Positions 6,689 through 60,050 of a stretch of 61,690 nucleotides of DNA are shown one piece after another. Source of the DNA: a virus; the IMG/VR virus record IMGVR_UViG_3300048507_001022, positions 1 through 61,690 of that record; one strand, given 5' to 3'. The position numbers were made by a program, and so were the translations under genes. Under the pieces are notes generated by a model. The model was not told the origin of the DNA. It made no database searches and saw only the letters and a program-made list of their open reading frames with translations. How positions within the stretch are numbered: position 1 is the first letter of the stretch; the number at the start of each line of letters is the position of its first letter.

Positions 6689-6709
6689 TTTTAATTACAT
6701 TATCATATA

Positions 6710-8145: not shown

Positions 8146-8161
8146 AACCAAACAACAATAC

Positions 8162-8755: not shown

Positions 8756-8762
8756 TATACAT

Positions 8763-12915: not shown

Positions 12916-12918
12916 AAG

Positions 12919-12946: not shown

Positions 12947-12951
12947 CATGC

Positions 12952-13509
12952 ATGAGTATTTCATTATATAAACCAAATAGTAAAAACACAGGTTGCGCAT
13001 TTAATTTTAAAATGGGAGTCAACAAAAAAAAGGAACCAGTAATTTATGTTAGCGCTATTCAACAATATAGTTGGGACGAAAAACGAAAAACTGGTAACTT
13101 TTCTGGAAATCGAGATGACGCAGAAAAAAAGATAAACGTTAAATTTTCAGAGTTTGAAATCGGGGGATTTATTAGCGCTTTTTCTAATCGTCATGAATAC
13201 TCTACATTTCATAGCTACGAAGACAACAAGACTAGCATAAAATGTGTTCCATGGGACAAACAAGTTAAAAGCGGATCTGAATCTATTGTGGTTCCTGCAT
13301 TTGGAATTACTTTAACCAGAAATGGAAACCAAACATTTCGCGTACCACTTGAACCAGGAGAAGTAGAGGGATTAAAATCTTTTTTTGACTTTTACCTCAA
13401 AGAACTTTACAGACATCGCAGGAAAGTTGAAATTGCTCAATATCAAAAATCTTTAGAAAAAGATGAGTCCCCAGCAGAAGCTCAAGAGACTTCTGAGGCT
13501 CCCTTTTAA
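12952..13509 (+). CDS. Putative ssDNA-binding protein with acidic C-terminal tip, 185 aa
   Basis: The family is not firmly recognised. Residues 1-150 alternate basic and aromatic residues (IYVSAIQQYSWDEKRKTG, FISAFSNRHEYSTFHSYED, FGITLTRNGNQTFRVPL), as in compact ssDNA-binding beta-folds. The last ~20 residues are an acidic linker ending TSEAPF, like an SSB tip. It has its own early promoter inside the glycan cluster and ends one base into the next gene. The tip resemblance and promoter class suggest a replication or recombination role; this is inference. Confidence 0.6.
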   Translation: MSISLYKPNSKNTGCAFNFKMGVNKKKEPVIYVSAIQQYSWDEKRKTGNFSGNRDDAEKKINVKFSEFEIGGFISAFSNRHEYSTFHSYEDNKTSIKCVPWDKQVKSGSESIVVPAFGITLTRNGNQTFRVPLEPGEVEGLKSFFDFYLKELYRHRRKVEIAQYQKSLEKDESPAEAQETSEAPF

Positions 13510-18167: not shown

Positions 18168-21100
18168 TTACAAGGTTAAAATTCCTACATCTTGATAGAT
18201 TGAAGTATTTTTATTATAAAAAAGAACCTTATTATCCGCGGTTCTACAAAACCCGAATTGATCTCTTGTAAGATTATAAAACCACTGACCAACAACATCC
18301 TCATTATTGTTTTTGGCTTGCATAGTAGTAGAATTTGTCCAATTCCAACCGTTTATATTAGTAGAGCTTGTGCCCCTAGTCCAGTAAGTAGTTGTTGACG
18401 ATGCAGAGGGTTTTTGTCCCGAATGAACTACTCTACATGTATATTTATAGGGATGCCAATCAACTTCGGAAACATAAACAATATCACCAACATTGTATTT
18501 TTTATCCTGACTCCACTCTTCCCCTTGAAAGGGAGGATGAAACCACATAGAGCCTTCCTGGGCGCTTGAACTATTAAAAATTATAAATACCCAACCTGAT
18601 ACTGAAGTTTTGAGAAAATTTTGAGCAAAAGCCCAACCTACTTCATTAAAAGCAGGAAAGTCCCCGCGTGTCATCTGAGAAGTGATATTGCTAGAGGTTG
18701 AAGCGTTTGGAGATAAATAAGCTGCAGTAGAGAACCAAGTGTTTTCGATCCATATTCCACCTGAAGATCCTTCTAAGCCTATATAAGCCGCTCCCTTTAC
18801 AGTTCTATTCCAAAATTCAGAATTATCATTTTTAAAGGGTTTTTGCCCCGAATGAACTACTCTACATGTATATAAATGAGCTGCCCAATAACCATTATCA
18901 TCTTCACCCCAATCAGTTTCAGAAACATAAACAATATCATTTTCATTATATGTTTTATATTGACTCCATTCTTCTCCTTTTCCAAAAAAATAACCACTTA
19001 AAAAATAGCCGCTATCACTTACAACACTTTTTATTTCTTCTCCATATATTCTTTTTATAGTTATAGGGTTTTCATCGCTATCATGAATAATTTTATTAAA
19101 AGTTCCACCTAGTATAACTTGATTACTTCCTCCTTCAATTTTATTAACCTGGCCAGCTCCAATGAAATTAGCTCCTTCATTTTCTTTATCATTATCAGGC
19201 ATTGAATTTTTATAGCCTGCGGCAATTGCAGAAAAATTATCATCACATTCATTTTTATAACCTGCACCTATAAAAGAAAATCGTCCTTCTATTTTGTTTT
19301 CTCCTCCACCTATAATTGCAGACGCTAATCCCTTATATGTAATTGGGCTCCTAGTCCAGTAAGTAGTTGTTGACGATGCAGAGGGTTTTTGCCCCGAATG
19401 AACTACTCTACATGTATATTCATAGGGCTGCCAATCAGCTTCGGAAACATAAACAACATCATCAACATTGTATTCTTTATCCTGATTCCATTCATTATGT
19501 ATAGTATTAGCAAATCCTCCTGCAATAAATGTGGCTTTTAAATTATTATTGACTGCTAGAAATGCTGACCAATCAATAGAGACGCTTCCAACAGCCGAAC
19601 TATCGGTTAGTAGTGTTCCATTAAAATCAACTGCGTTTAATTGTAATTGCTTGGTGGAACTGTCAAATCTTAAATATGAATTTAATCCATTCGCTATTTT
19701 CGCTCCTATATCAAAATAAACACTTTCTTCCTTTGTTCTAGCTAATAAAAATCCTGCAGTAGAATAGTCCTCGTTCCCCTGAGTTATAACGGCAGGAGGT
19801 CCATCTTCTGTATTGTATAATCCACCCTTAAATTTTGCAGATACAATAATTCCATCTTTTGCAGCGGTTAATTGATTTCCTCCTTCGCCAAGAGTTAATT
19901 TTTGTTGCACAAAAGCTTCTTTTGTTAATAATAATTCAGTGGCTACGCTAGAAAATTCAGCACCAAACTCTTTCCAATAATCTGAAGTAGACGAAGGAAT
20001 TTGTGCACTTGCAATACTAGTATCAGGCCCACTATCTTGAATAGCTATATAATATTTTAAAGTACCTTCATGATAAACAATATCACCTCTCCCAGGTTGA
20101 TTATTTGCAGCAACCGGATCTACAGCATAATAATTTTCGCCTTCTGAGTATTTACCTCTAAATGTTGGAGATCTACCTTCTTCTCCTTTATCTCCTTTTT
20201 TACTAAAAACGACTCCAGGAGTTAACCAATTTATAGTTGCATCTTCTTGATTTTTGTAACCATAAGCGACTCCAACTAGAACGCTAATTTCATCCGACGA
20301 ATCCAAACCTACAGGGCTCGATGTCCAGCCGCTATTGATATCATCACCGTGTATACTTAATGGGCTAGTATTTGACCCGTGATTAGAAAAATCGTATGTC
20401 GTGTCAGTACTAGGTGTTTCTGTAACGTCAAGAGTGCCTTGTTTATAAATATAAACTTCAGCTATAGCATCAGCGTCTACTCTAAATACCTCTCCTTCTG
20501 TTTCATTTCCGTCTTTATCTGTGGTGATTTTAATAGCCCATAAAAAACCGCCTTCGCCAGGAGGATCATTTTTCCAATTATCATCATATGATGGAGCCGT
20601 ATTAGTAGGTGTTGTTGTAAATTTGAGATTAACTGAAGAACCATTATCTCCGGGCGCTCCATCGCTAATTAAAGATATTGTTGTAGATGTTTCTATACTC
20701 GCACCAACTCCTGATGCATATAATATAACTGCAGACTCTGAATATGTATCGTATATATTATCAAAACCCGGATTTATTGAACTTGGAGAACTTATCTGAC
20801 ATTCAAACTCAGCATGTGCGATTTTTATATCTTGATCAGAAAAATCCTGAAAGCCATCCGTCGGATCATATGTAAAACCTGATATAGAATTATCGACTCT
20901 ATTCTCAAATTCATCATATGTAAAAACGCTTTGACCATTTGCTGTAGTCATTCTAAATCTAACATCTTCAGCAGATATATCACTATTTTGATATCGCGCA
21001 TAAATATCAATAGCTTCCTGGCTGTCAGGATTTAAATCACCATTTACATCTTCACTATAATAAAAATAAGAAGGTTCTGCACTTAAATTAATAAAAGTAT

Positions 21101-24100
21101 ATTCGCTTCCGTCTACTTGCCTTAGCTTACCTTCCAGTACTAACTCGTCATTATCAAAATATAATCGACCATCATCTGCGGCGAACACGAAACTACCATC
21201 ACCAGAAACAACAAAACCTTTACCGGTATCAGATAAACCCTGAAAACCATTACTTCTTATATTCCCTTCATTTCCAATTTGAATATCTTCAGCTCCAATT
21301 GTTCCTGCAGTAATTTTATCAGCAGTCAAATCATTAATTTTTGCACTAATAATTGCCGCATCAGCAATGTTTGCCGTTCCGATTAATGCGTTCGCAAAAA
21401 CATGAAAAACTGGAGTTGCAATTCCGCCTCTTGATCTAGCGATTATAAAATCTCCATCATCAAAACCAGCAACGCCATCTGTTCCATCGGATCCCGCTGG
21501 ATGAATTTCGCTAAATGAATATTGACTATCTCCAGAATTCCACCAAATATATCCGCTACCAGCATTACTTCCAGAAATTTCATAATAGTTTCCATTATGA
21601 AACAAAGTATGAGTATCCCAAGATACTTGACTCTCAATAGGAGTATTGTTTTTGAAAGGGTTATTGGGTTCTAAGGCTATAGTATTAGGAAAGCTATCTG
21701 TTAATGATAACTCAAAACCATCGATATCAGTAACATCCATTTGTCCTAGTTGTAACCTTAAACCTTCAACATTATCTCCTTCAAGATCCGCTTTACCAGT
21801 AAATGGACTTTTATTTCCTGCTTTATCTACAGCTCTAACCCAAAAGTAAGCTTCTTCATTACTTATGCCTTCTCTAGAAACCTGAGTTGAGTTTCCATTG
21901 GCTGCGACATTAAATATATTCACCGCATTTGTTATACCCTCAGCAGGATCAAGTTGTTCCAATGGAATATTGCCGAGACTCTGCAAATCTCCGAATATTC
22001 TTCTGAATCCATCTTTATTTGTTTCTTGAGTTAACGCAACATTAAGAGAATCAAAATATAAGTGATCGCTTTTCCCAGACCAAACCTCATAATGACTTAA
22101 ATCATTGGGAATATTTTTTAATAAATTAGTATTTTCTGAACCAGGAATCTGCCAAGATAAAAAGAAATTCTCAAATGCAGTTCTTCCTTCAAAATTAACA
22201 ACTGGGCCAGGAATATCGTCTGAGGTAGTTCTAATGACTGGTCCGGCAGGAGCAGAAGGGTCTTGGGTATTAAAATTTTTAGGATAAACTAATACTTTAT
22301 TATTAATTGAGTATAAGTCTCCAGACCCAAAGTCATCAAAAGGTAATATCTTGTAATAATAACCTGTAATTTGTTCATCTCCATTCTCAACTGGTATAGG
22401 AGGAGTATCAACAATCTCCGTAATATTATCTCCAAATGTAGCATCTCCAGCTCCCAATAATACTTTAACAAGAGATCCGCCTTCTTCTACATTAGATAAT
22501 GCTAATCCATCAGATCCAGTGATATCGAATTGACGTTCACTTGACCTATACAAATGAACTTTTGTTGTTTTTTCGCGCAAACCAAATGCATAGTTAAAAT
22601 CAAATTTAACTTTACCAGCTTCACTCAAACTATCAACCTTAAAACCTGCATCCAATATACTAGGCTCAGGATTCCTGCCTACAATTTTTTGTACATCTAA
22701 AACTTCACCATCACTAGATATAATACCAACCTCAAGACCAACACTTCTTTTTCCGCTCTCATTAATACCTACATGACCAAAAACAAAATCATTATATTCA
22801 TCATTTAATTCCCAAAATGGCATCCATTGAGAATTAATATAATCAGAATTTATTTCTTGCGGTGAAGTTGTAGAAGCTATAATAGGAGCTCCTGTAGGAT
22901 TAAAGTCTAGACACTGATATACAGCTTCGTTATGATAGATTTTATCGCCAGGCTGATTTTCGCTGAAAAAATCTACGCCACCAATATTGTTTGCCCAATA
23001 ATTAGAAGCAAAAGCAGAAGTAGAAGGAGTTACCGCTCCTGCATCAGTATCAGGCCCACTAGCACCAACCCCACTCCATATATCATTATTATACACAACA
23101 AGACTTCCTGTATTAAATTCGTCTTGATTATTCCAATTTCGTAAATCTGGATATTGATAACCAGAAGCATACAAGTCAAAAAATGATAAATTTTCTGGAG
23201 TTTTAATCGGCCAATTTTCTACCGCAGGAATAGAATTAATAGAAGACCCAGGAGATTCATAGTAAGCGCACTCTATATCAAAAAATGGAGACAATAATTT
23301 CCATCTTCTTCTGTTAGTGCCAGGAGCAACAACATCTGCAGAACTTTGATATACTAAATTTTGATATATACCATTTGAGTATAATACAATATCACCAATA
23401 GCATAATTATTATTACTATCATATTGCCTTATCCTACTATCAGTTGGAGCTATAACAATATCGCCCAATGAATATATTGTATTATAATTAAATAAACCTC
23501 TAACAGAAGTAGAAGTCGGGCCAAAAGTTTGATTGGTTACATAAAGTTCATCATTATATTCAAAAACATCAGCCCAAGGAGCGCTTGAATTATTATAATA
23601 AGTTTCGCTCGGATTCCAAGACTCGTAAGATGGTTTAACATAAGCTGAATCACCTTGTCCTCCCCCAACATTTGTTCCATTCCATTTGGTTAATGCATGA
23701 CGTTTCCAACCATCATTAGTGTTAACGTATAAATAATTTAAATCATAATCAATTTCACCAACTACAGCTTCTTTACTTAAATCAGCATCAGCTAAAGGTA
23801 TTTTAAGCCAAGAAGTTGTTTGTTTGCATATATAAAAATAATCATCATCAAAATCAGTATCACCCAAATACGAAGATGTTCGCGTTACTGTTGCTGCTCC
23901 AATTCTACGCCAAGTATTCGCGGCAACACATAAATAATAATAATTATCATCTACCGCAAAAGATCCAGGATAACCATGATATTGATCATCAGGTGGAACA
24001 TCATTATCACCAATAACAGGTATACCATCAACAACATTATACAAAAATCCATCACCACCTATAACAAAATCACCATAAGAATATACCCCCGTGTCTTTAA

Positions 24101-25754
24101 AATATTCCCAACCCTCTGGATATCCCCTGCTTTTAAATATTTCATTATTTAGGTTTCTTGTAAATTCAAAATGATCAAATACTTTTGTCGTGGGCAAACC
24201 ATAAGCAACGAATTCGTTACCTTGCTCATCAATTGTTTTTGTTCGCGATTTATCTCCCTCGGTAATACCAGTTAAAAATAAATCTGTATCATTATTATAT
24301 AAATGACCACTAATACCCAAAACAGAAGGAATATCATTAGATGTAAATGCAACTCTATACTGTTCTAAATCAACAACATTACCATCTTGATCTAAAATAT
24401 CCCAATCAAAAACTAAATCATCTTTTCTTTCTCTATATCTTAGATTAGAAATATTGATTTCGGGACTTAATGCATATAATTCCCTAAACTCTCCTGTATC
24501 AGTAGAGTCAACAGCTCCACCTTCAGTTAGATTAAACACTTCTCCAGGACCAAAATCATCTACAGCCTGAAATGTATAATAATAAGAATACCCCCAAACC
24601 TGAGGAATTTCTATTGATTGCTCGAAAGATGTATATTCATTATATTGAAACTGGTAATATTCGCCAATTTCAGTCCAGTAAGTTGTATTTGTTGGTAATT
24701 TCTGACTTGAAGTTGTAGTATGATCTTGTATACATTTATACAAAAGGCCTTGATACTCAACTTTTTCTCCAGAAGCATATTCTATATTTGGAACATTACT
24801 CCAGTTTATTGCGTCTTCGCACTCTTGCAGATATTCTCTGCTACTTTGTAGATCTTCTGGATATTCTAAAGTTTGAGAGCTAGGAATAGCAAGAGTATTT
24901 ATATTAATAGCAACAAAATCCGCAGTATTTATATCCCACGAAAATGCAGCATTTATTCCATTAAGTGAATAAGCTACAGATTCTGGTTCTGGCGCAAAAT
25001 TAATTCCAGATAATATACCTGTTGAAGTATTACCATTTATATCATGAGCAACAATTTCAAAAGAAACTTCTCTTCCAAAATTAAGATTATCATCATTAAA
25101 TATTTGAGGAGTTAAATTAAAATTAAAATTTCTATAATTATTTAATTCGCCAGTTACATTACTGGTTCGAAGATAACCTTGTAAGGATGTCGAGTTTGAT
25201 AAATTAGTATCACTTACAACAACTCCGTTTTCACCTGTTTTAATAGAGATTGAAAAATGATCAAAGAAAGTATCATTTAATAATTCAGAAGTAACAACCT
25301 TACCTTCTAAAGCGTGACCAGGAGGTGGAGACAAAGACCATGCCAAGTTAATATTTTTTCCGGGATACTGCGAGAATACAACTAAATCATCACCAACACC
25401 AGTAGGAGCTTCAATTATTTCTGACGTTAGAGCGGGATCCTCTCTTGCATTAGTAACCTCTAAAGTCGCAAACGTAAATGTTCCATTAAACTCTGGAGGA
25501 TTAACAATTAAAGTTCCTTCGATAAAATCTGATCGAATACCAATATCACTAACAGCAAATATGCGAACATCAAATTCTCCATAATTGCCTTCTAAAGAAA
25601 TAACTCTTTGAGCGGTTTCTCCTTCAAACCCAACAAGATCACTACCTTTTCCGAGTTTATACTGAAAAGAATAATTGTCAGATGAACCCAATACCTCATA
25701 ATTAGCATCAAGATCATTGACGTCAAATTGAATACCTATTGCTGTCGACTTCAT
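18168..25754 (-). CDS. Giant tail-tip/fibre protein with repeated carbohydrate-binding-like modules, 2528 aa
   Basis: The N-terminal ~1000 residues are fibronectin-III-like strands broken by modules resembling CBM5/12, for example residues ~325-364 (GEKVEYQGLLYKCIQD...YW). Three closely similar modules lie near the C-terminus (pattern W-x5-Y-x3-D-I/V-V-Y-V...Y-T-C-R-V-V-H-S-G-Q-K-P...W). The mid-section ADKITAGTIGAEDIQIG resembles the C-terminal part of lambda J-type proteins. A tract of I-G-A-G-Y-K-N repeats resembles trimeric adhesin heads. It probably reads host surface glycans. It follows the I/J fusion with a one-base overlap. Confidence 0.8.
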   Translation of the reverse strand: MKSTAIGIQFDVNDLDANYEVLGSSDNYSFQYKLGKGSDLVGFEGETAQRVISLEGNYGEFDVRIFAVSDIGIRSDFIEGTLIVNPPEFNGTFTFATLEVTNAREDPALTSEIIEAPTGVGDDLVVFSQYPGKNINLAWSLSPPPGHALEGKVVTSELLNDTFFDHFSISIKTGENGVVVSDTNLSNSTSLQGYLRTSNVTGELNNYRNFNFNLTPQIFNDDNLNFGREVSFEIVAHDINGNTSTGILSGINFAPEPESVAYSLNGINAAFSWDINTADFVAININTLAIPSSQTLEYPEDLQSSREYLQECEDAINWSNVPNIEYASGEKVEYQGLLYKCIQDHTTTSSQKLPTNTTYWTEIGEYYQFQYNEYTSFEQSIEIPQVWGYSYYYTFQAVDDFGPGEVFNLTEGGAVDSTDTGEFRELYALSPEINISNLRYRERKDDLVFDWDILDQDGNVVDLEQYRVAFTSNDIPSVLGISGHLYNNDTDLFLTGITEGDKSRTKTIDEQGNEFVAYGLPTTKVFDHFEFTRNLNNEIFKSRGYPEGWEYFKDTGVYSYGDFVIGGDGFLYNVVDGIPVIGDNDVPPDDQYHGYPGSFAVDDNYYYLCVAANTWRRIGAATVTRTSSYLGDTDFDDDYFYICKQTTSWLKIPLADADLSKEAVVGEIDYDLNYLYVNTNDGWKRHALTKWNGTNVGGGQGDSAYVKPSYESWNPSETYYNNSSAPWADVFEYNDELYVTNQTFGPTSTSVRGLFNYNTIYSLGDIVIAPTDSRIRQYDSNNNYAIGDIVLYSNGIYQNLVYQSSADVVAPGTNRRRWKLLSPFFDIECAYYESPGSSINSIPAVENWPIKTPENLSFFDLYASGYQYPDLRNWNNQDEFNTGSLVVYNNDIWSGVGASGPDTDAGAVTPSTSAFASNYWANNIGGVDFFSENQPGDKIYHNEAVYQCLDFNPTGAPIIASTTSPQEINSDYINSQWMPFWELNDEYNDFVFGHVGINESGKRSVGLEVGIISSDGEVLDVQKIVGRNPEPSILDAGFKVDSLSEAGKVKFDFNYAFGLREKTTKVHLYRSSERQFDITGSDGLALSNVEEGGSLVKVLLGAGDATFGDNITEIVDTPPIPVENGDEQITGYYYKILPFDDFGSGDLYSINNKVLVYPKNFNTQDPSAPAGPVIRTTSDDIPGPVVNFEGRTAFENFFLSWQIPGSENTNLLKNIPNDLSHYEVWSGKSDHLYFDSLNVALTQETNKDGFRRIFGDLQSLGNIPLEQLDPAEGITNAVNIFNVAANGNSTQVSREGISNEEAYFWVRAVDKAGNKSPFTGKADLEGDNVEGLRLQLGQMDVTDIDGFELSLTDSFPNTIALEPNNPFKNNTPIESQVSWDTHTLFHNGNYYEISGSNAGSGYIWWNSGDSQYSFSEIHPAGSDGTDGVAGFDDGDFIIARSRGGIATPVFHVFANALIGTANIADAAIISAKINDLTADKITAGTIGAEDIQIGNEGNIRSNGFQGLSDTGKGFVVSGDGSFVFAADDGRLYFDNDELVLEGKLRQVDGSEYTFINLSAEPSYFYYSEDVNGDLNPDSQEAIDIYARYQNSDISAEDVRFRMTTANGQSVFTYDEFENRVDNSISGFTYDPTDGFQDFSDQDIKIAHAEFECQISSPSSINPGFDNIYDTYSESAVILYASGVGASIETSTTISLISDGAPGDNGSSVNLKFTTTPTNTAPSYDDNWKNDPPGEGGFLWAIKITTDKDGNETEGEVFRVDADAIAEVYIYKQGTLDVTETPSTDTTYDFSNHGSNTSPLSIHGDDINSGWTSSPVGLDSSDEISVLVGVAYGYKNQEDATINWLTPGVVFSKKGDKGEEGRSPTFRGKYSEGENYYAVDPVAANNQPGRGDIVYHEGTLKYYIAIQDSGPDTSIASAQIPSSTSDYWKEFGAEFSSVATELLLTKEAFVQQKLTLGEGGNQLTAAKDGIIVSAKFKGGLYNTEDGPPAVITQGNEDYSTAGFLLARTKEESVYFDIGAKIANGLNSYLRFDSSTKQLQLNAVDFNGTLLTDSSAVGSVSIDWSAFLAVNNNLKATFIAGGFANTIHNEWNQDKEYNVDDVVYVSEADWQPYEYTCRVVHSGQKPSASSTTTYWTRSPITYKGLASAIIGGGENKIEGRFSFIGAGYKNECDDNFSAIAAGYKNSMPDNDKENEGANFIGAGQVNKIEGGSNQVILGGTFNKIIHDSDENPITIKRIYGEEIKSVVSDSGYFLSGYFFGKGEEWSQYKTYNENDIVYVSETDWGEDDNGYWAAHLYTCRVVHSGQKPFKNDNSEFWNRTVKGAAYIGLEGSSGGIWIENTWFSTAAYLSPNASTSSNITSQMTRGDFPAFNEVGWAFAQNFLKTSVSGWVFIIFNSSSAQEGSMWFHPPFQGEEWSQDKKYNVGDIVYVSEVDWHPYKYTCRVVHSGQKPSASSTTTYWTRGTSSTNINGWNWTNSTTMQAKNNNEDVVGQWFYNLTRDQFGFCRTADNKVLFYNKNTSIYQDVGILTL
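18376..18525 (-). repeat. Intragenic repeat, copy closest to 3' end of giant tail gene
   Basis: About 150 bases encoding a W...Y-W module, nearly identical at DNA level to 19351-19495 over a run beginning ctagtccagtaagtagttgt on the plus strand. A third, more diverged copy lies at 18837-18985. Such high DNA identity indicates recent duplication or recombinational homogenisation. Confidence 0.8.
18837..18985 (-). repeat. Intragenic repeat, diverged middle copy with an insertion
   Basis: Shares the run ccgaatgaactactctacat with the flanking copies but carries extra codons (the W-G-E-D-D-N-G-Y-W-A-A-H loop) before Y-T-C-R-V-V-H. The middle module has diverged most. Confidence 0.75.
19351..19495 (-). 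repeat. Intragenic repeat, upstream copy
   Basis: Nearly identical to 18376-18525 in DNA sequence, with a few substitutions (for example gccccg versus gtcccg), encoding the same carbohydrate-binding-like module. Confidence 0.8.
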
Positions 25755-34207: not shown

Positions 34208-35106
34208 TTAATGATTTGCTTGATTGTAACAGATCCAGCGGAGTATTGGCCTTCGGCAATTGATAGAGATTGATTTTGTATTTTTCCAACGCAAGAAAAT
34301 TTAGCAATTTTACTACCATCAATAGAATATAAAAACGCAGAAATAGAAGAATCAGTTTGAGTATTTAATCCTTGTCCATATGTTTGCGATATTCCATATG
34401 GATTTAAATTAGAAACAATGTCATTCGCCTCAACACTCATTTCAGCTTCTATACTCTCAACAGAAACTCGCGTAGGAACAACGCCATCTGGAGAAGTATT
34501 TACAGATGTATGTTCGCCGTCTCTGATATGATTATATTCTTTTCTATTCACTACTATATTATAACCTAATTTTTTAATTTCAAAATCAGAACCTCCAGTC
34601 GATGCGTTCAAATTCCCAAAAGATTTTAAAGCATGAACAAAATCATTTTCTGTTTTACTTGTTTCCATTGCCGAACTTTTTCTTACTGATCCATATATAT
34701 TATAAGATGCAGTAGCTTCAATTATCTGAAACGGAGTCAAACTAAATCCAAAAGACTTTAAATACATATTATCAAATCTATATCTACCAACTAAATTATT
34801 ATGTATAGGATATTCATCCATACCATCTTTAATCTCAAACATGCGTTGAATATTATTAGTAATATTATCTTTTTTAAAATCTTCTGCAGTAATTAAAAAT
34901 GTTATATCTAAAGTGCCGCGAATACCACCGACTGGAGCAAAATTTACAAAATCAACTTTTGCACCTCCTGTTTCTGGATCGTAATCTCCGTATACTCTTT
35001 CTGCTTGCAGCGAGGGAGCTATAGATAGATTTGCGGATTTAACAAACAGGTCTTTTCCGCCGACCATAATCTTGCCTCGTTCAAATCTTAAAAAAGGATC
35101 ACTCAT
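34204..35106 (-). CDS. Tail tube-like protein (distal tail), 300 aa
   Basis: Sequence is beta-rich. It opens FLRFERGKIMVGGKDLFVKSANLSIAPSL and contains GGIRGTLDITFLITAED and VSVESIEAEMSVEANDI, the pattern of phage tail-tube or tube-initiator folds. Between the tape-measure and M-like genes, lambda-type phages do not normally carry tube genes, so these may form an extended tube-to-tip adaptor. It overlaps the preceding gene by 4 bases. Assignment rests on pattern and position. Confidence 0.6.
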   Translation of the reverse strand: MSDPFLRFERGKIMVGGKDLFVKSANLSIAPSLQAERVYGDYDPETGGAKVDFVNFAPVGGIRGTLDITFLITAEDFKKDNITNNIQRMFEIKDGMDEYPIHNNLVGRYRFDNMYLKSFGFSLTPFQIIEATASYNIYGSVRKSSAMETSKTENDFVHALKSFGNLNASTGGSDFEIKKLGYNIVVNRKEYNHIRDGEHTSVNTSPDGVVPTRVSVESIEAEMSVEANDIVSNLNPYGISQTYGQGLNTQTDSSISAFLYSIDGSKIAKFSCVGKIQNQSLSIAEGQYSAGSVTIKQIIK

Positions 35107-35990
35107 GAGACTGGATTGTGCAAGGTTTCGTAACCTTTATATGTTAAAGAAATTGATATTTCTCCTTCCACGCTGGAAGATATTGATTCGCTGATTAATC
35201 TTACATTACTACCCGTAAAAGAATTGATCATTTCGTCTGTCTGTCCATCTTTCAATTCTATTCTTACATTACTTTTCGGCGCAGAAATAATTCTATCTTT
35301 TATTTCTCTTATTTGATATTCATCTGCAATCATCGTAAAATTTATATCTGTTTCAATCGGATATTGAGTATCAACTTGAACTGGCTCTAAGTTCGCGTAT
35401 GCTGGCCCGCTATCTTCTTCCTTATCCCAATCATTTTTATTTCCTCTAGGAATAGCATATACAGGCAAAAGATTTAATGTTCTACTATAACTAAAATCAG
35501 TAATTGCATCTATACTAAAATCATCTACATTAATTAATATACTAGATTGATCTGGAAATTGAATAGGAGGATGAGTATTAGTTTCTGATTGAATGCTTAC
35601 TCCACTACCAAGCTGACCGTATACTCGAATATCTGTTTGAACATCAGGAATATCGCCAACAGTACAGCTGACAGTATATCTCGATATACGACCTTTATTA
35701 AACCCAAATCCTTTAGTATCGTTATCGTATAATATCGCGCCACTAATTTCTTGATTATCGTAAGTATATTTACCAAGGGAGTCGATTTCAATTAAAGGAT
35801 CGCGGCTCACCATTTTTCTAGATATTGAAAAGTCGCCTTCAAGTGGAGCATCTATCATCGCATCAACAAAACCAACACCAGCGACTTTTATTGGCTTTTC
35901 TGCTATACCATAACTTCCATTTACATCAACAACACCAGATAAAGCATAACCATTAACAATTACTTTTTGTTCGTAATTTGAATAACTCAT
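35103..35990 (-). CDS. Tail tube-like protein, 295 aa
   Basis: The protein opens with QKVIVNGYALSGVVDVNGSYGI. Alternating strands such as GDFSISRKMVSRDPLIEI, the central ILINVDDFSIDAITDFSYSR and the final VRLISESISSSVEGEISISLTY resemble major-tail-like beta-sandwich proteins. The S-x-x-S-x-G-x-x-S/T-V final strand is shared with the product of 34204-35106 and with the two major tail paralogues at 47155-49572. It overlaps the tape-measure gene by 4 bases, so it is translated in the same operon. Confidence 0.6.
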   Translation of the reverse strand: MSYSNYEQKVIVNGYALSGVVDVNGSYGIAEKPIKVAGVGFVDAMIDAPLEGDFSISRKMVSRDPLIEIDSLGKYTYDNQEISGAILYDNDTKGFGFNKGRISRYTVSCTVGDIPDVQTDIRVYGQLGSGVSIQSETNTHPPIQFPDQSSILINVDDFSIDAITDFSYSRTLNLLPVYAIPRGNKNDWDKEEDSGPAYANLEPVQVDTQYPIETDINFTMIADEYQIREIKDRIISAPKSNVRIELKDGQTDEMINSFTGSNVRLISESISSSVEGEISISLTYKGYETLHNPVS

Positions 35991-38900
35991 GATTTTCCAC
36001 TCAACAAGCCTCCAGGTCTTTGCTCTTCAACAATCACACTTACTACTTGAGCTTTAATTCTTTCTGCTAGTTGAGATGAGTTTTGTTGCTCTTCAGATTT
36101 TTCTGCAGGATTTGTTCCAACATCAGAATCAGAGCTTTTTTCTTCAGAAGATTTACCGCGTTCCATATTAATTGATATATTAATATTATTAGTATTTCCT
36201 CCAGATATTCCAGAATCAGAAGATTCTTGCATTGGAGTTACAGGTCCACCTTCATTAAATTTGCCTGCATTAATCATGTCAAGCATGGGCTTTCCAAGTT
36301 GTCTTGCAGAACTCGCGCGAATAACATATTCTCCTTCGCTAAGCATTGCTGGAATTTGATCTATTCCAGATTTACCAGAAATATGACCGCCGCTGGCGTA
36401 TTTATTTATTTTTCCTCCGAGATAATTATTATTAACCCCAAAACGTCGCGGACCTTTAAGTCTTCCAGATAATCCACTCATGTTAAATCTAGCTAAAGTC
36501 GCATCGTCTAAATCAAGAGCGTGACGCATAACTCCTGAACCCCCTTCAGACACAGGGGTTATAGTGGCTCCGCCACCCTGATCTCCAGATAGAGGAGTTG
36601 AGTCTGCTCCCCCTAAATTTATACCTTGCATAGCGTAATTAATACCCACATTTGCAACTGTGCCAATAACTTGTTGTAACAAAGCTCTTCTTTTTGCTTT
36701 TTTTGCAAGAGCTTCCTGACGCTTCTTTTCTTCGGCAGCAAGCACTCCCATAAGAGCGCTTTCATCTTCTTGAAGAGCTACGCTACCAGCTTGACCACTA
36801 TAAAAATACCCGCTCATAGGTTTTGACTGATAAGCTCTTCCTGAAACAACATGTTTTCCTCCGCCAAATCCTGCTGAAACTGCAGATCCAGGAACTGCAC
36901 CTCCATCAGCAAAACCCCTAATTGAACCGCCGTAATATTTACCCATCCCAAGCATAGATCCAATTGCCTTAAACGGCGCAAAAATCATTTTAAATAATCC
37001 GCCGAACAAGTTATCGATAAAACCGCTTTGTCCTAAAGCTGCTTTAGATCCAGTTTCGCTTAAGGGATTAGGCTTGGACATAGGTGATTGAGGAGAACCT
37101 TCAAAAAATGCAGCTAAACCTGAACTTGGAGTTTTTTTGAAGCTAGCAGCGGCTTGAGCTTTTTTAAATTCTTGCTGATATAAACGCATATTATTTTCGT
37201 CGTCCAAAAAAGAAGTCATTCTTTGCCCCATGGTTCGTTGAGGCATCATACTGTATTCAGGTCTTGGAGCAAAAGCTTCAGCTAAGCTTGTTTGTTTGAT
37301 ACCCCTTGGAGCTGGATTTATTGGTTGACCAAATGCTTGTGCAAGACCCATGGTTGAACCTCCGTTAGAGAATCCAGGTAGTTTTCCTCCTGCATTTAAA
37401 CTATGCATAAAGGCTCCGCCATATTTATTTACGGCATTGCGATTCATGACATATTCGCCATTAGTAACCATAGCAGGAACTCCTCCTCCTCGAGAGTAAT
37501 TTCTGATATTACCCCCTCTGCTTCTAGGATTCATGTTAAATCCTAGACCACCTACAATAGAATATGCAGCTTGCTGCATGAGCGCTTGTTGTATTGCTCC
37601 TAAAAAGTTAATCGCGGCATCTGTTAGAGCATCATCAAGATCTTTAGCTCCATTAAGAGCATCAGTCATTGCTGAAGCTAAACCATCGGCGAAATTACGA
37701 GGAATATTTTGACCAAGCTCGTAGTTCATCATTTTAACTTGTTTTCCCATTTCAATTCGCGCATCTTTCATTCCTTCACCAAATGCCCCTGGACCAGTTT
37801 TTCGCGCATATTCTTTTTCTCTGATTCGTTGTAGTTTTTCTTCTTTTGAGATTTGAGCGTCTTTTAATCCAACTTGTCGCTCTAGTTCTTCTGTTATTTT
37901 CTTGGATTCCTTAGTTTGTTCAGCTTTAGCGTCATTGATTGACTGTTGGAGCGTTTTTAATAACTGCAATTCCTCAAGTTCTTTTTTCTGAGTTTTTTGC
38001 GCTTCTTCGTATTGTTTCTTATCAGTTTTTTGGTCTGCCTCGGGTCTTGTCGAAAATTCTGTGAGCTGTTCTTGTCTTTTTGTGGTGTCTTCGGTTAATT
38101 TTTTAATATATAAAGACGGATCATAGCCTGCTTTAGATTTTAAAACTTCTTCTTGCGCCGATATTGCGGTTGCAGATATTTCTGATAACTTAGATGGGTC
38201 TTGTATAATTTGCATTCTTTGCTCTTCGCTTAACCCTACTTTATCTGCAAAAGATTTTGTTGTAGAAAGTGCGCTCTTAATATATTCTGATTGAATATTC
38301 TGTTGCCGTTCTCCGACAAGCCTTTGTTGTTCTGCAAAAATTTCTTGTTGAGTTCGTGCTGGTCCAGCCCCAAATCTAGCAGCTTGCAATTCACTTGAAA
38401 TACCTCGCAACTTAGACGCGTAATCTAGATTACTAACATACGAGTCCATTTCACGATTAATATTTTCCATTAATGTTTTTCGCTCTGTAAGCTTCATATT
38501 TAAGTCGCGCTCTAATTGACTTTGCTTGTTTGTCAATTGTTCTTGCTTTTTTAGAGTATCAATAGCATTTTCGTACAATAAATTTCTATTCGAAACAATT
38601 TCATTTGCTTCTTGCTGTGTCTTGCCAATTTTTAATAGAATAGCCTCAAGTTCTTTTGCGTTCATTTTTGCAAGCTTGCCAGTTACATCAACCATGGTTT
38701 TATCTCCTGCCTCACCGCCAAACAATTCTTTTTTCAATTCTTGCTGCACGGCAGGTTTGCTGGTTATGTCTTGAATGAGCCCGGTTTTATAAGTTTTAGC
38801 AGCTTCTTCAGCTCCTGCTTCATATGCCTCAGAAGCTTTTAGCAGGCTTTTATTGTACTTAATTCTAACTTTTTGTTCCTCACTGATTAATCCACCAAGC

Positions 38901-41900
38901 AGTTTTTCTTGAGAATCAAGCAAATTCACTTGATCCAAGAATTTGCTTTTTATTTCCAGCTGCGCATTAGCACTTGCTTTTTGAGCAGTAATCATAGCTC
39001 GCTGCAAATTTAATTGAATGATTATACTTTTTTTGCGCTCTTCTGCAACTTTTGTACTATCCTCTACAGTGTCAACAAAATTTTTATAATATTTTGCGGC
39101 CTCCTCATCACCCAAATCTTGTATTTCTTTTTTGTATTCTTCGGGAGTAAATTTTCTTGTTTTTGGTTTGTAATCTTTTCCTAATAACGTACGCTCTTTT
39201 TCGCTTAATATTTCTTCTGCTTCAAATACCATACCTTTAGGTAAAGCATCCAATATTTCAGACATTGAGGATCTAGCTTTTCCTGCAAGCTTACCTTGAG
39301 CTGCGTCAACTAATTCACTCTTAAGCTTTGCAAATCTTTTAGCTGTTTTTCCTTTTTTTGCGGTCGCTAAATTTGATTCAAAAGTTTCGATGCCTGGGGT
39401 GTTTCTGGAAAGTATACCTTGAACAGCAGGCGTTTGACCAAATGCAGCAGCGGCTTGAGATCCCAGTCCCCCCGCATATTCAATTCTGGCTTTTGATTCT
39501 TTTCTTGCAGCTTCTTCTGCTTCGTTTAAACCGCTAACGAGTCCACCGAGGGCTCCAACTGCACCGCCTATTGCCATACCAAGAGGACCAAACATCATAC
39601 CCATGGCGGCTCCGGAACCTGCGCCAGTTAACATTCCCCCTATTGCTGAGCCAGCCCTACCACCAACATTTTCTTCTATAAATCCACCGGCCATAGGTAG
39701 CCCCATCATTAAGCCCATTTGACCTCCTGTGCTACCAAGCATTTTACCTGGTTTTGATTTGCCAAATTTTTTATTCATTGAAGAGAACCCGTGCTTCATC
39801 TTATCCATGGGACGCTTCATGTCATTAAGTCTATTGCTCATATCCAAATGAGCAGAAGCGCTCAAGCTATATTTTTGATTTAAATTATTAGAACCTTTTA
39901 TTAATTGCTCGTGAGATATTTTGCCTTTTTTATATGTGTCTATTAAAGCCGATAAATGCTTATTAGCTTTACCCACAAGCTTTGCGGTTGACCTAAACTG
40001 TCCTGTAGTATCTCTGGGATTAAAATCGCTTTGTTGAAACGCATAATTCGGCACAAACCCATTCGCACCAAACACATCACGCAAACCATTTGGTTCATCT
40101 TTTGTATTGGTTACGCCGAGACCAAGGGGGTTACCTTTACTCATGAGCGCATTGTGTGAACCAACTCTAATTTGTGAAACAGGAACACCTGCAGCTTTCT
40201 CTCGACCTATTGCATCTGATAATGGATCGGCAAAGTTAGGAATAAAACCGTAAGCTTTAGTTTTACCTTTTGTTTTTAAGTGGGAACCAGTGTGTAAACT
40301 GTAAATTTTTCTGGCTAAACTTTTAACATTTTTTGCTGCTGTGTTTATCTTTACTTCTGCGCCATCTTTCCCCTTTACTTCTCCCTTCTCTATGCCGAAT
40401 AATTCGTAAAGTTCTTGGTTGGGGCCTAGATCTATAAGTTCATTTGATTTATCTGAAATTGCTCCCTCTGCACCAAGTTGCCTCAACACAGTTTTTGTTA
40501 CCGCCTCAAAGATATGCCCAGAAACCACAGCCATTTTGCTGTGAGGCAAGTCGGTGTTCAAGTCGTCCTTTTTAATTGGGGGTCTCCCAAGTCTACCCAA
40601 TATTTTATCCGCAACAACTTTACTCTCAGCTTGCAGACTGGAATTCATTTTGTCATCCAGTCTTCCATAAGCCTTTTGTTTATCTGAACTATCTAAAGCT
40701 TTAAATTCTACATCAATTTTTGCTCCATATTTTCCATTTTTCCTTGCATTTTGAAATCCTGCTGCAGTAGCGCTCGCATATATTCCACTGTCTGTACCTG
40801 CGCCTCCTGCGACATAATAGGTTTGCTTGGGAGAGTCAGGACCAAGAGATGCAGATAAACCTATATAGTTCAACGAATTTGGATTAAGGTAGCCATCAGT
40901 CGCTACGTCGCTTGAATTACTGACTTTAGTTTTCCCCTTGTTATTTTTTGCTTTTAATGCGTTTGCTCGCGCTTTCTCCATAATCTCATCCTCAAGATCT
41001 GTTCTGGCATTCCATCCTTGAGGATTTTTTCCTTCCTTAATCATTTTTGTGGCCTCAGTCGCACTTAACTTGGCGTAATTTGGTATATAACCTTTCGCAG
41101 CATAAGGATCGAATCCATGTATACTACCAAATGCTTGTTGATAATTTTTTCCAGCTTTGCTAGACTGAGGAGGCATAATCGCGGGTTGCGTCATACCCTT
41201 GAAATTTTTAACTGTTTCTGCGCTATTATAGATGATTGGCCCTTCACCAGGCATATTCATACTACGAATATTGCCAGCGGCATACCCACCTCTTGCAGCT
41301 TGTTCTCGCTCTGGATGAGCAAAGTTAGGAATATGCCCATAAGCACGACGTCTTTTTGGAGTTAAGTTTGGGCCATAACCTTTTGTATATAATGTAGCGG
41401 CAGCTTGTTTGCTGATTGCATTTAAAGCATTAGCTTCTGCGACTTGAGCCTTAAGTAGCCCTAAAATCATTTTTTCTTTTTCCGTTCTGCTTATATCTGT
41501 TCGAAGCATCTCTTTGCTTAATGCAGCGTTTTGACCAAACAAGGAAACTAAAGACGCTTGAATAGCTTTTTGCTTTTGAGCTTCAGTTGTAATACCTATT
41601 AGAGAAGACAAACTATCTCTTGTAAACTTAAAAGCTTGACCAAAAAGTTTAAAGAATACGGTTGTCAATACAACCAAACCTGGGCCTGTAATAATATTAC
41701 CTATACCCTTGAGTAATCCTGTAGCAAATTTATTTCCTGTACTCTCACCGTCTCCGAGCATAGTGTTAATACCCTCTGCCATACTCTTAACAGCATTTAG
41801 TATTTTTTCCATTCCAGGGCCAAGCGTTATTTCTCCAAGCTTGGAGCTCATTTCTATGATAGAAGTTCCTGTTTGACTAACTAATGCAGATATAGTTTTA

Positions 41901-42961
41901 TTTAATTCTTTATTTTTGTCAATAGCTTCATCTGTAGCGCTTGCAGAAATCTGAGTTGCATTTGCAAGAATACCGTTTTGTTTTGCAGCGTCTCCCAAGA
42001 TAGCTTTTAAAACGTTTATTTGAAAAACGCCACCAACAGTTTGAGCGATTTGCGCTTTTTGGGCTTCGCTTAATGAATCAAAAGTGTTTGCGAGATCAGT
42101 TAATATTCTTTTAGCGCCAAGAGTTTTACCTTCAACATCTCTTACGGCTATACCTAAATTTTCTAATTGATTTAAAGTATCTGTTCTGCCAACACGAGTA
42201 AAAATTGTTTTCAAGGAGTTACCAATAACTTTACCACCTCGGGCAGTTTGTTGTTGTGCAGCAGTTACAATACCAATAAGTTCATCAATATCTACTCCAG
42301 CTCCTTTAGCTGCAGCACCAGTTCTAGAAATAGCGTCAGCGAAATCTTCTGCGCTAACCGCGAATTGAACATCTACAGCTGCAAATTTACTTACCAATTG
42401 AGTAGTATCTTTAATCTGATGACCATAAGTATTCATTGCGGCAGTTAAAGATTTTACTGCTTCAGCAGAATCCATTCCTGTCAATCGAGTAAGAATAAGA
42501 GCGTCTTTTGTACGCTTTAAAGATTCTTCAACACTTAAACCTTGACGAGCGTATTCTGTTGCTGCGTCAGCGGCAATTTTAAAAGAAGACGCGGTATCTT
42601 TTGCAACTTTAAATAAGCCATCACTAAATGCATCTAGATTTTTTGCGCTTAAACCCATGACAACATTTATATCTGCCAATGATTTTTCAACTTCAACCAT
42701 GTTGCGAACCATACCTTTAAATGCATCGGACACACCATTAATAATAGCCATACTCGCACCGAACGCCAAAATACGAGCATTAGCAGCCTCCATGGATTTA
42801 GTAAACTCGTCCGCACCACGTTTCATGTTGCCCAAGGGTTGAGTTGCACCCTTGTCATCGATAGTGATTCTTATTGGGGTTTTGCGGATTCTATTTACCG
42901 CAGCTTGAACCTGCGCCTCAAGAGGCGATGTATTACCATGTACATCAAGATTTATAGCCAT
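35987..42961 (-). CDS. Tape measure protein (TP901-type core) with embedded domains, 2324 aa
   Basis: Residues ~80-330 are a TP901-type tape-measure core (VEKSLADINVVMGLSAKNLD, AVKSLTAAMNTYG, FADAISRTGAAAKGAGVDI, RGGKVIGNSLKTIFTRVG). Hydrophobic segments lie at ~420-450 and, Gly-rich, at ~1080-1145. Long coiled coils fill ~1150-1800. The C-terminal third has two copies of a VPAMVTNGEYVM-type motif common in tape measures. Four G-x-I/V-P-N-F/Y-A motifs (~541-974) frame an inserted segment with nuclease-like residues. At ~0.15 nm per residue the tail would be roughly 300 nm or more. No Shine-Dalgarno; ATG follows AAGGTAAT. Confidence 0.92.
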   Translation of the reverse strand: MAINLDVHGNTSPLEAQVQAAVNRIRKTPIRITIDDKGATQPLGNMKRGADEFTKSMEAANARILAFGASMAIINGVSDAFKGMVRNMVEVEKSLADINVVMGLSAKNLDAFSDGLFKVAKDTASSFKIAADAATEYARQGLSVEESLKRTKDALILTRLTGMDSAEAVKSLTAAMNTYGHQIKDTTQLVSKFAAVDVQFAVSAEDFADAISRTGAAAKGAGVDIDELIGIVTAAQQQTARGGKVIGNSLKTIFTRVGRTDTLNQLENLGIAVRDVEGKTLGAKRILTDLANTFDSLSEAQKAQIAQTVGGVFQINVLKAILGDAAKQNGILANATQISASATDEAIDKNKELNKTISALVSQTGTSIIEMSSKLGEITLGPGMEKILNAVKSMAEGINTMLGDGESTGNKFATGLLKGIGNIITGPGLVVLTTVFFKLFGQAFKFTRDSLSSLIGITTEAQKQKAIQASLVSLFGQNAALSKEMLRTDISRTEKEKMILGLLKAQVAEANALNAISKQAAATLYTKGYGPNLTPKRRRAYGHIPNFAHPEREQAARGGYAAGNIRSMNMPGEGPIIYNSAETVKNFKGMTQPAIMPPQSSKAGKNYQQAFGSIHGFDPYAAKGYIPNYAKLSATEATKMIKEGKNPQGWNARTDLEDEIMEKARANALKAKNNKGKTKVSNSSDVATDGYLNPNSLNYIGLSASLGPDSPKQTYYVAGGAGTDSGIYASATAAGFQNARKNGKYGAKIDVEFKALDSSDKQKAYGRLDDKMNSSLQAESKVVADKILGRLGRPPIKKDDLNTDLPHSKMAVVSGHIFEAVTKTVLRQLGAEGAISDKSNELIDLGPNQELYELFGIEKGEVKGKDGAEVKINTAAKNVKSLARKIYSLHTGSHLKTKGKTKAYGFIPNFADPLSDAIGREKAAGVPVSQIRVGSHNALMSKGNPLGLGVTNTKDEPNGLRDVFGANGFVPNYAFQQSDFNPRDTTGQFRSTAKLVGKANKHLSALIDTYKKGKISHEQLIKGSNNLNQKYSLSASAHLDMSNRLNDMKRPMDKMKHGFSSMNKKFGKSKPGKMLGSTGGQMGLMMGLPMAGGFIEENVGGRAGSAIGGMLTGAGSGAAMGMMFGPLGMAIGGAVGALGGLVSGLNEAEEAARKESKARIEYAGGLGSQAAAAFGQTPAVQGILSRNTPGIETFESNLATAKKGKTAKRFAKLKSELVDAAQGKLAGKARSSMSEILDALPKGMVFEAEEILSEKERTLLGKDYKPKTRKFTPEEYKKEIQDLGDEEAAKYYKNFVDTVEDSTKVAEERKKSIIIQLNLQRAMITAQKASANAQLEIKSKFLDQVNLLDSQEKLLGGLISEEQKVRIKYNKSLLKASEAYEAGAEEAAKTYKTGLIQDITSKPAVQQELKKELFGGEAGDKTMVDVTGKLAKMNAKELEAILLKIGKTQQEANEIVSNRNLLYENAIDTLKKQEQLTNKQSQLERDLNMKLTERKTLMENINREMDSYVSNLDYASKLRGISSELQAARFGAGPARTQQEIFAEQQRLVGERQQNIQSEYIKSALSTTKSFADKVGLSEEQRMQIIQDPSKLSEISATAISAQEEVLKSKAGYDPSLYIKKLTEDTTKRQEQLTEFSTRPEADQKTDKKQYEEAQKTQKKELEELQLLKTLQQSINDAKAEQTKESKKITEELERQVGLKDAQISKEEKLQRIREKEYARKTGPGAFGEGMKDARIEMGKQVKMMNYELGQNIPRNFADGLASAMTDALNGAKDLDDALTDAAINFLGAIQQALMQQAAYSIVGGLGFNMNPRSRGGNIRNYSRGGGVPAMVTNGEYVMNRNAVNKYGGAFMHSLNAGGKLPGFSNGGSTMGLAQAFGQPINPAPRGIKQTSLAEAFAPRPEYSMMPQRTMGQRMTSFLDDENNMRLYQQEFKKAQAAASFKKTPSSGLAAFFEGSPQSPMSKPNPLSETGSKAALGQSGFIDNLFGGLFKMIFAPFKAIGSMLGMGKYYGGSIRGFADGGAVPGSAVSAGFGGGKHVVSGRAYQSKPMSGYFYSGQAGSVALQEDESALMGVLAAEEKKRQEALAKKAKRRALLQQVIGTVANVGINYAMQGINLGGADSTPLSGDQGGGATITPVSEGGSGVMRHALDLDDATLARFNMSGLSGRLKGPRRFGVNNNYLGGKINKYASGGHISGKSGIDQIPAMLSEGEYVIRASSARQLGKPMLDMINAGKFNEGGPVTPMQESSDSGISGGNTNNINISINMERGKSSEEKSSDSDVGTNPAEKSEEQQNSSQLAERIKAQVVSVIVEEQRPGGLLSGKS
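40037..41344 (-). other. G-x-I-P-N-F-A motif region with inserted cargo-like domain in tape measure
   Basis: Residues 541-548 (YGHIPNFA), 622-630 (AKGYIPNYA), 903-911 (AYGFIPNFA) and 966-974 (ANGFVPNYA) are near-identical short motifs. Between the second and third lies a ~270-residue segment (about 40256-41071) unlike coiled tape-measure sequence. It carries GHIFEAVTKTVL, LIDLG and GEVKGK / AEVKI, an order of E, D, E-x-K reminiscent of PD-(D/E)xK nucleases. The segment may be a delivered or assembly-related domain. Confidence 0.6.
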
Positions 42962-43001: not shown

Positions 43002-43988
43002 TTATGTCACACCATGTAATTTCATTAAATCTTGCATATTTAGCTTGCCACCTTTTTTCTTTGCTTCGTCATGCAAGCTCTTCCCACCAGTGGGTTTTTT
43101 GATCCCAAGATACTCATAATCTTCATCTTTTGCGCCAACAAGAGTTCCTGCGTCTCCTTTTGATAATTTATCTTTTACTTTTTCTCTTTCTTCTTTTGAA
43201 CTGCTACCAAATTCTAATAATTTTGCTGGATCTTGTTTAATATTTTCTGGTATATTTTCATTTGTATCAAATATATTTTTAAATACTCTAGTAAATACTA
43301 TCAATCTTATTTGGTTGTATGTTAAATCACAAAATGCTTTTCCATAAAATTGCATACTATCTTCAGCAAAACTTAAATATGGACTATAAAAATCTTCTAA
43401 TATTGTATATTGTATATTTTCTTCATCAAAAGCGGTAAAAATATGATTATAATTTAAAATATATTTTTTGATATCATGATCTTCCAATTCATCATAAGAT
43501 TCTTCATTAAATAAAACCTGACTTAAATCTTTATCTTTATAAAAACTTTTAATCATATAAAAATCATTCATACGATCTTTTGCATATTTTTCGCAAGTAT
43601 TACCAAGAAGATTAGCTTTTTGCGCGCTTTTCTCAATCAGCTCTTTTTCTTCTTTTTCAATAAGTGCGGCCTGTTTATCGATGGCGCTTTTAAGAACCAT
43701 TTTATTTTTAGCCGTTCTTAATCTTTCTAAAAAGCCTTGCTTTTCTTGAATGATCGCATCATCCTTGTCGCTCCACTGACCTTCCTTTTTAAGAAATTCC
43801 ATCATTTCAACTTCAGATGGAACACCTCGCTTTTGCGCGACTTTGTAATATTTTTCTTCTATTTCCTCGAGTTCAACCTGATCGTGAGGAGTCAGGTGTT
43901 TAATATATACAAAATCTTCGTCTATGATCGCAGTAGAATAGCCGCGAACAACGTCTCTAAATATTTTTCTGCGCTTGACAGTTTCCAC
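43002..43988 (-). CDS. Tail assembly chaperone-like protein, second of pair, 328 aa
   Basis: A charged, helical protein with no named domain: it starts VKRRKIFRDVVRGYSTAI and has a coiled, Lys/Glu-rich segment at ~85-150. YSPYLSFAEDSMQFYGKAFCDLTYNQIRLIVFTRVF forms its hydrophobic core. It sits directly before the tape measure, where lambda-type phages place assembly chaperones (G/T). Translation starts at GTG 43988, 5 bases after the preceding stop and in its -1 frame, but without a classical slippery heptamer. Confidence 0.6.
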   Translation of the reverse strand: METVKRRKIFRDVVRGYSTAIIDEDFVYIKHLTPHDQVELEEIEEKYYKVAQKRGVPSEVEMMEFLKKEGQWSDKDDAIIQEKQGFLERLRTAKNKMVLKSAIDKQAALIEKEEKELIEKSAQKANLLGNTCEKYAKDRMNDFYMIKSFYKDKDLSQVLFNEESYDELEDHDIKKYILNYNHIFTAFDEENIQYTILEDFYSPYLSFAEDSMQFYGKAFCDLTYNQIRLIVFTRVFKNIFDTNENIPENIKQDPAKLLEFGSSSKEEREKVKDKLSKGDAGTLVGAKDEDYEYLGIKKPTGGKSLHDEAKKKGGKLNMQDLMKLHGVT

Positions 43989-59483: not shown

Positions 59484-60050
59484 ATGATCGAAAGTATACT
59501 AATTATAATTATATTAGCTTTATGCTACAAACTTTATGGGCGCGAGGCAGAAGATGACAATTTTGAATTAGATGATTTGCGAAATGAAAATGAGTTTTTA
59601 AAATTAAAAATCAATGAACACACAGTAGAATCAAAAGGTAGAGAAGATAATTTAACGAAGATTATTAATGAACTACAAACATCTATTCCAAAAGATAGAG
59701 AAGATTTCGAGAAAAGAAACGGCCTTCAAGCACAACAGATAAAAGAGCTTGAGGAAAAGCTCGATAGTGAGACTGAGGCTCGCAAGAAAGTCCTTTCTCA
59801 AAAGAAGAGCGGGGAAGTTAGACTTGGGCATATAGCGGAGACCCTAGCCCCCTTCTTGGATCAATTTGAATTTGATCCAGAGAGATGTTCCTTTATGGGT
59901 AAACCAATTGATTATATATCATTCGGAGATGATGAGATAACTTTTATAGAAGTAAAAAGCGGTAACGCACAATTAAATCAAAGACAAAGACAAATTAAAA
60001 AATTAGTAGAACAAAAAGCAATATCATGGAAAGAAGTAAGGATAAAATAA
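59484..60050 (+). CDS. Membrane-anchored Holliday-junction-resolvase-like endonuclease (Endonuc_Holl type), 188 aa
   Basis: Residues 2-18 (IESILIIIILALCYKLY) are a membrane anchor and ~25-110 a coiled coil. The C-terminal 75 residues are a PD-(D/E)xK core: GHIAETLAPFL (Glu), FMGKPIDYISF (Asp), FIEVKSGNAQLNQRQRQI (E-x-K and Q/R motif). This matches the family of endonucleases related to archaeal Holliday-junction resolvases. It could resolve recombination intermediates produced with the RuvB-like ATPase, possibly at the membrane. A weak TTGAAG / TACTAT pair stands upstream. Confidence 0.75.
   Translation: MIESILIIIILALCYKLYGREAEDDNFELDDLRNENEFLKLKINEHTVESKGREDNLTKIINELQTSIPKDREDFEKRNGLQAQQIKELEEKLDSETEARKKVLSQKKSGEVRLGHIAETLAPFLDQFEFDPERCSFMGKPIDYISFGDDEITFIEVKSGNAQLNQRQRQIKKLVEQKAISWKEVRIK

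Follow-up and report, generated by a model that had tools for sequence, protein, structure and literature searches.

Polymorphic toxin systems combine a conserved carrier with a domain that is exchanged as a unit between close relatives. For phages, Iyer et al. (2017, PMC5512222) describe polyvalent proteins, multidomain virion-associated polypeptides with enzymes that are presumed to enter the host by injection and to work at an early stage. When the DNA enters, phage tape measure proteins (TMPs) come out of the tail and function at the inner membrane (PMC10240207, PMC13190303). Tde1, a DNase effector of the type VI secretion system (T6SS), is carried across the membrane by a glycine zipper, which is required for crossing the target membrane (PMC10240207). 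We analysed a stretch of 61,690 nucleotides of viral DNA (IMG/VR record IMGVR_UViG_3300048507_001022, positions 1 to 61,690; hereafter the window, meaning this whole stretch), whose TMP encloses a block of putative nuclease type between copies of the short motif G-x-[IV]-P-N-[FY]-A (PNFA motif). We read this block as an exchangeable effector cassette in a siphophage TMP, of nuclease type here and in most relatives, that would be delivered into the host; we give this reading a probability of roughly two in three.

The carrier is a phage TMP. The 2324 amino acid (aa) product of the open reading frame (ORF) matches Pfam PhageMin_Tail at residues 119-311 (4e-29) and several PHROG tape-measure families (to 8e-56), and its gene lies in a long-tail context with genes for tail fibre J and minor tail protein L nearby. 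It has four copies of the PNFA motif, whereas 20,000 shuffles of the protein gave a mean of 0.00035 motifs and reached four copies in 0 of 20,000. The original prediction had placed four such motifs across residues 541-974, and they are found within one or two residues of those positions. The organization of the gene and its slot is as follows:

35987..42961 (-), TMP gene, 2324 aa, carrying the cassette slot
41318..41338 (-), PNFA motif 1, GHIPNFA, residues 542-548
41093..41317 (-), conserved spacer module A, residues 549-623, EREQAARGGYAAG...HGFDPYAAK, 54 loci
41072..41092 (-), PNFA motif 2, GYIPNYA, residues 624-630, left cassette boundary
40250..41071 (-), exchangeable cargo block, residues 631-904
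40229..40249 (-), PNFA motif 3, GFIPNFA, residues 905-911, right cassette boundary
40061..40228 (-), conserved spacer module C, residues 912-967, GREKAAGVPVSQIRVGS...DEPNGL, 62 loci
40040..40060 (-), PNFA motif 4, GFVPNYA, residues 968-974

Both spacer modules (EREQAARGGY... and GREKAAGVPVSQIRVGS...) are much better conserved than the cargo, and their starts match each other weakly; they may be copies of one repeat.

Comparison with relatives shows the motifs and spacer modules to be, at the level of sequence, fixed boundaries of a slot in which whole domains are swapped. The 37 TMPs of the nearest clade have a median identity of 81% over the head and of 82% and 88% over the two spacer modules; over the block it falls to 27%, where shuffled sequences give a background of 22%. 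The head of one relative (L034) is 99% identical to the window TMP over the part available, and the two blocks share 23% identity, the level of shuffled sequence (22%). The nearest relative of the window block, at 51% identity, belongs to another TMP (L019), yet the head of that protein is only 79% identical to ours. The same conflict between head and block is found under strict thresholds in 10 of the 37 TMPs. Similarity ends just past motif 2 and returns just before motif 3 in seven of eight swapped pairs inspected; in the eighth (window/L034), short insertions and deletions beside the motifs blur the boundaries for the simple method applied. Cassette types that are retained evolve under purifying selection, with a median ratio of nonsynonymous to synonymous substitution rates (dN/dS) of 0.18 over 70 pairs. 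The proposal that other tape measures hold different domains between copies of the motif is thus strongly borne out.

Being the most divergent part of otherwise near-identical TMPs, the block could also be a variable surface that lets the TMP escape host recognition, with enzyme activity secondary. Such interactions are known: SNIPE binds siphovirus TMPs and phages escape through TMP changes (PMC13190303), and defences of this kind could drive the variation. However, the turnover observed is whole-domain replacement combined with purifying selection within families, not point change, and the invariant catalytic-type residues described below would be needless for escape, yet they are 97-100% conserved. 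We therefore regard recognition escape as quite improbable.

An in-frame insertion carrying a nuclease-like domain also recalls inteins and homing endonuclease genes (HEGs), so that the block might be a selfish element of intein-like or homing type, or else a chimera of assembly. Against selfish insertion, no complete TMP of the close clade has the site empty, profiles of inteins and HEGs give no match, and the boundaries are a protein motif written in varied codons. Separate metagenomes yield identical combinations of backbone and cassette (for example L003/L004 and L005/L006/L008), an argument against a chimera. Insertion or chimera is, in our judgement, hardly credible. Codons inside the PNFA motif vary freely at synonymous positions, and the motif is therefore kept at the protein level. 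A DNA-level role of the motif as a recombination sequence was considered and, given this variation, is unsupported.

The exchangeable block of the window contains a predicted core domain with a set of residues of catalytic type:

40301..40747 (-), nuclease-like core domain, residues 739-887, from a 143-domain profile and the AlphaFold model
40505..40507 (-), E819, catalytic-type Glu in a helix (GHIFE), E 97%, D 3%
40430..40432 (-), D844, catalytic-type Asp (LIDLG), 99%
40349..40357 (-), E869-x-K871 (GAEVKI), (D/E)xK on a strand, position 869 D 61%/E 39%, K871 100%
40307..40309 (-), K885, motif-IV-like, in the following helix, K 79%/Q 21%

The percentages refer to 142-143 domains of the window-block family; G815 is conserved in 100% of 143. 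With the window block as its starting point, an iterated profile picks up 104 of 153 TMPs, and 140 of 233 in a larger set, among the matches listed; PNFA motifs frame 123 of 129 internally placed nuclease-like domains, again among the matches listed. The 143 domains are highly divergent, many pairs sharing less than 20% identity. When sets of 39, 49 and 64 members are aligned with MAFFT, most of them at 12-30% identity to the sequence that heads the alignment, the columns that stay invariant are G-x-x-F-E, D and (D/E)-x-K, to which the smaller sets add a lysine in the next helix.

The PD-(D/E)xK pattern consists of E, D, (D/E)xK and the K/Q of motif IV in this order, with exchange of D for E and of K for Q permitted. 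The conserved residues of the block form a PD-(D/E)xK-like set in both order and permitted exchange. We infer that the window cassette is a divergent metal-dependent nuclease of PD-(D/E)xK type; nuclease is the best reading of the invariant signature, and membership of the family is putative. The original prediction, which had proposed such an active site, offered two E-x-K candidates. AEVK is conserved in relatives and stands; GEVKGK is rejected as the catalytic ExK because relatives conserve only AEVK. Loss of the E, D and K positions in relatives is not seen: E, D, the acidic residue and K are present at 97-100% over the 143 domains.

AlphaFold2 models the window block as a mixed alpha/beta domain with a mean predicted local distance difference test score (pLDDT) of 80 and a core above 90. 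A distant member of the family, from L130, is given a similar topology (pLDDT 87, predicted template modelling score 0.82). The block at residues 631-904 is thus predicted to be globular, with neither a coiled nor an all-helical rod, in agreement with the earlier expectation of non-coiled sequence between the motifs. Both models position the catalytic-type E on a helix and the ExK on a strand, and position 885 falls within predicted helix 252-267 of the window model. In both, no strand separates the E helix from D, a helix lies between D and (D/E)xK, and the N-terminal part has additional strands.

Several points weigh against a nuclease delivered to the host. The spacing from D to (D/E)xK, about 25 residues, is long. 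Foldseek and VIA-align searches of solved folds with both models returned no PD-(D/E)xK or other match, a family not listed in fold searches not being thereby excluded; a search of predicted viral folds with the window model gave no match either. Comparison of the nuclease-like profile with those of YraN and Mrr reached probabilities of 0.2 and 0.4, respectively (E 0.17-0.33, not significant), while the positive control, YraN against Mrr, gave a probability of 85 (E 6.5e-6). The original prediction is supported in part: neither a rod nor loss of the E, D and K positions appears, and no fold match or significant profile match to known PD-(D/E)xK families was obtained. In tblastn searches of 50,697 deposited phage records, neither the block nor three other cassette regions found a match. 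Delivery into the host and the target are both inferred.

The same observations bring in a different reading of the active site, in which the block is still an effector cassette and E/D/(D/E)xK/(K,Q) belongs to a new enzyme fold with another phosphoryl-transfer or nucleotide-modifying activity. Two confident models without a fold match favour it, as do the extra N-terminal strands and the helix between D and (D/E)xK, unlike the canonical core, and the searches of Pfam, PADLOC and PDB sequences, in which the nuclease-like family found nothing usable. The residue order with its D/E and K/Q exchange is, however, the pattern of PD-(D/E)xK enzymes. Two cassettes occupying the same slot (C38 and C30) have canonical PD-(D/E)xK spacing by eye, and another (C16) is a weak bridge to both the nuclease-like family (E 4e-4) and YraN (E 5e-4). 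In the best alignments of the nuclease-like profile, E and D are in register with YraN and Mrr, and ExK is in register for YraN. We consider a new fold unlikely and retain the nuclease-type cassette as the preferred reading.

The PNFA motif is a mark of TMPs, as judged from profile matches. The 77-aa module between motifs 3 and 4, used as a query in viral contigs, matched 62 viral loci. These share one layout: motif 1 lies near residue 543 and motif 2 82 residues later, followed by a variable block (about 240-305 aa), then motif 3 and, 63-64 residues on, motif 4; some loci have an extra block of 93-127 aa. Two gene-blind scans of the viral collection for DNA patterns gave at least 120 hits each, and the searches together yielded 233 non-redundant motif ORFs among the matches listed. 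A profile of the TMP head is matched by 152 of the 159 motif ORFs with at least 450 residues before the first motif, among the matches listed. Cellular genomes (257 Gb) hold ten motif sites in all, several of them in proteins unlike a TMP, and prophages are therefore not the main home of the motif. A scan of 198 genomes of one bacterial phylum with the A2 profile, run without positive control, gave no match. One cellular-genome match, in a contig of a Flavobacteriaceae metagenome-assembled genome (L329), has a near-identical spacer module C; solely by way of binning, it hints at Flavobacteriaceae among the hosts.

Enzyme-like motifs of other kinds are found in the slot. Walker A occurs in 17 of 200 framed segments outside the nuclease-like family among the matches listed, against 0.46 expected by shuffling, and four cassettes are ADP-ribosyltransferase (ART)-like, against 0.08. 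A further ART-like cassette (L334) matches Pfam ART-PolyVal with E 1.3e-5 and 26.5 bits, below the curated cut-off of 31.2. Two are SNase-like, with a match to Pfam SNase (0.011) that stays below cut-off; the framed segments also include protease-like cassettes with HExxH and kinase-like ones. These enzyme identities are leads resting on motifs; together the cassettes look like an effector repertoire. The P-loop domain (e.g. GPAGSGKST ... DILSGAARTKDGG) has its own PNFA-framed slot of about 155-170 aa, often directly before the nuclease-like block, with a weak AAA_30 match as its only Pfam hit (L130, L138, L162, L178, L182, L190 and L224). Some TMPs (L148, L201, L292 and L334) have several different framed domains in a row, among them ART-like, protein-kinase-like, acetyltransferase-like and HExxH protease-like ones.

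The window TMP has just two strong hydrophobic stretches, one on each side of the slot:

41621..41713 (-), hydrophobic segment 1, before the slot, residues 417-447
39527..39613 (-), hydrophobic glycine-zipper segment 2, residues 1117-1145, with GxxxGxxxG runs from about residue 1100

A hydrophobic stretch precedes the cargo in all 86 complete relatives (86/86); within 500 residues after the cargo, 73 of the 86 have a hydrophobic stretch and 72 a GxxxGxxxG pattern. By analogy with TMP biology, the protein would leave the tail ahead of or with the DNA, and segment 417-447 and the glycine zipper at about 1100-1145, both probably membrane-active, would insert in the inner membrane. The slot would then be a loop between membrane-inserting parts, reaching the host interior on genome entry, and the cassette would fold on the far side and act in the host cell at the moment of entry. 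Candidate targets are host DNA or RNA, nucleic acids of rival phages, and nucleic-acid-based defences or a defence component. That near-identical phages differ in their cassettes is suggestive of an arms race.

The genes that flank the TMP gene are fixed:

43002..43988 (-), upstream neighbour, conserved 328-aa gene, homologue in 124 of 124 loci
35103..35990 (-), downstream neighbour, 295-aa gene overlapping the TMP stop, homologue in 93 of 101 loci

Median gaps between the TMP gene and these neighbours are about 37 and -1 bases, the latter downstream. Loci with different cassettes have these genes directly on either side of the TMP gene, which leaves no room for an immunity gene beside it. We lean, by a small measure, towards a large, hitherto undescribed group of uncultured siphophages in which the TMP is a modular vehicle whose PNFA slots carry interchangeable enzymes injected with the genome. 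Their cargo would comprise a new nuclease superfamily together with P-loop, ADP-ribosyltransferase-like, kinase-like, protease-like and SNase-like domains, and the TMP would be the phage counterpart of polymorphic effectors, without linked immunity genes.

Other regions of the window encode functions apart from the slot. Genes for glycosyltransferases and methyltransferases (GT2, Gly_transf_sug, WavE, GT9 heptosyltransferase-like, Methyltransf_24) follow one another at positions 5957-16582, by which the phage would make surface sugars or another decoration. A 2528-aa protein that PHROG families hardly match, possibly a giant tail fibre, is encoded at 18168-25754 between the tail fibre J and Peptidase_S74 genes. 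A separate stand-alone nuclease gene (59484-60050; Pfam Endonuc_Holl, 6e-23) lies by the genes for dCMP deaminase and dUTPase.

TMPs are usually treated as rulers and channels. If the delivery proposed here is true, effectors reach the host at the very start of infection in a large class of phages, ahead of any phage gene expression, and the PNFA motif is a simple sequence handle for finding such cargo in metagenomes. Several questions become testable: which side of the membrane a TMP loop reaches, how cargo gets through so narrow a tail tube, how the phage avoids damage to its own DNA, and why phages that are otherwise near-identical exchange their cassettes. The motif itself could serve as linker, hinge or cleavage site.

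Among described systems, the TMPs analysed here resemble phage polyvalent proteins in being multidomain and virion-associated with enzymes thought to be injected, and in the likeness of the L334 cassette to ART-PolyVal, below cut-off. Several cassette types per TMP occur in L148, L201 and L292, with domain identities taken mostly from motifs. The TMPs differ from polyvalent proteins in being themselves the carrier, in their exchangeable slots bounded by motifs and in a main cargo of nuclease-like type; the word "tape" is absent from the polyvalent-protein paper (PMC5512222). The TMP-related effectors Sle1 and Tme of contractile injection systems (PMC13277306) likewise have a TMP-like carrier and reconfigurable domains that differ between relatives, but they belong to bacterial nanomachines and have the variable domain at the C-terminus, whereas here it is internal to a phage TMP and bounded by PNFA motifs. 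Tde1 shares with the window TMP a nuclease beside a glycine zipper, which is also present in some tape measures; it differs as an Ntox15 nuclease with an immunity protein, secreted by a T6SS without PNFA motif, phage tail or such a slot (PMC10240207).

The PD-(D/E)xK superfamily (YraN/UPF0102, Mrr_cat) is alike in the order and exchangeability of E, D, (D/E)xK and K/Q, and unlike in the absence of a significant profile or fold match, the long D-to-(D/E)xK spacing and the extra N-terminal strands. Polymorphic toxin systems (Zhang et al. 2012, PMC3482391) offer the same conserved carrier with unit-wise exchange of a domain; in the window TMP the slot is internal, with more than 1,000 residues after it, and lacks an adjacent immunity gene. 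The literature searched, which left most subscription papers and preprints outside it, holds no description of the PNFA motif or of enzyme cargo in TMPs. The injected phage effector is itself already known; new here are the carrier, the boundary motif and, probably, the nuclease-like superfamily.
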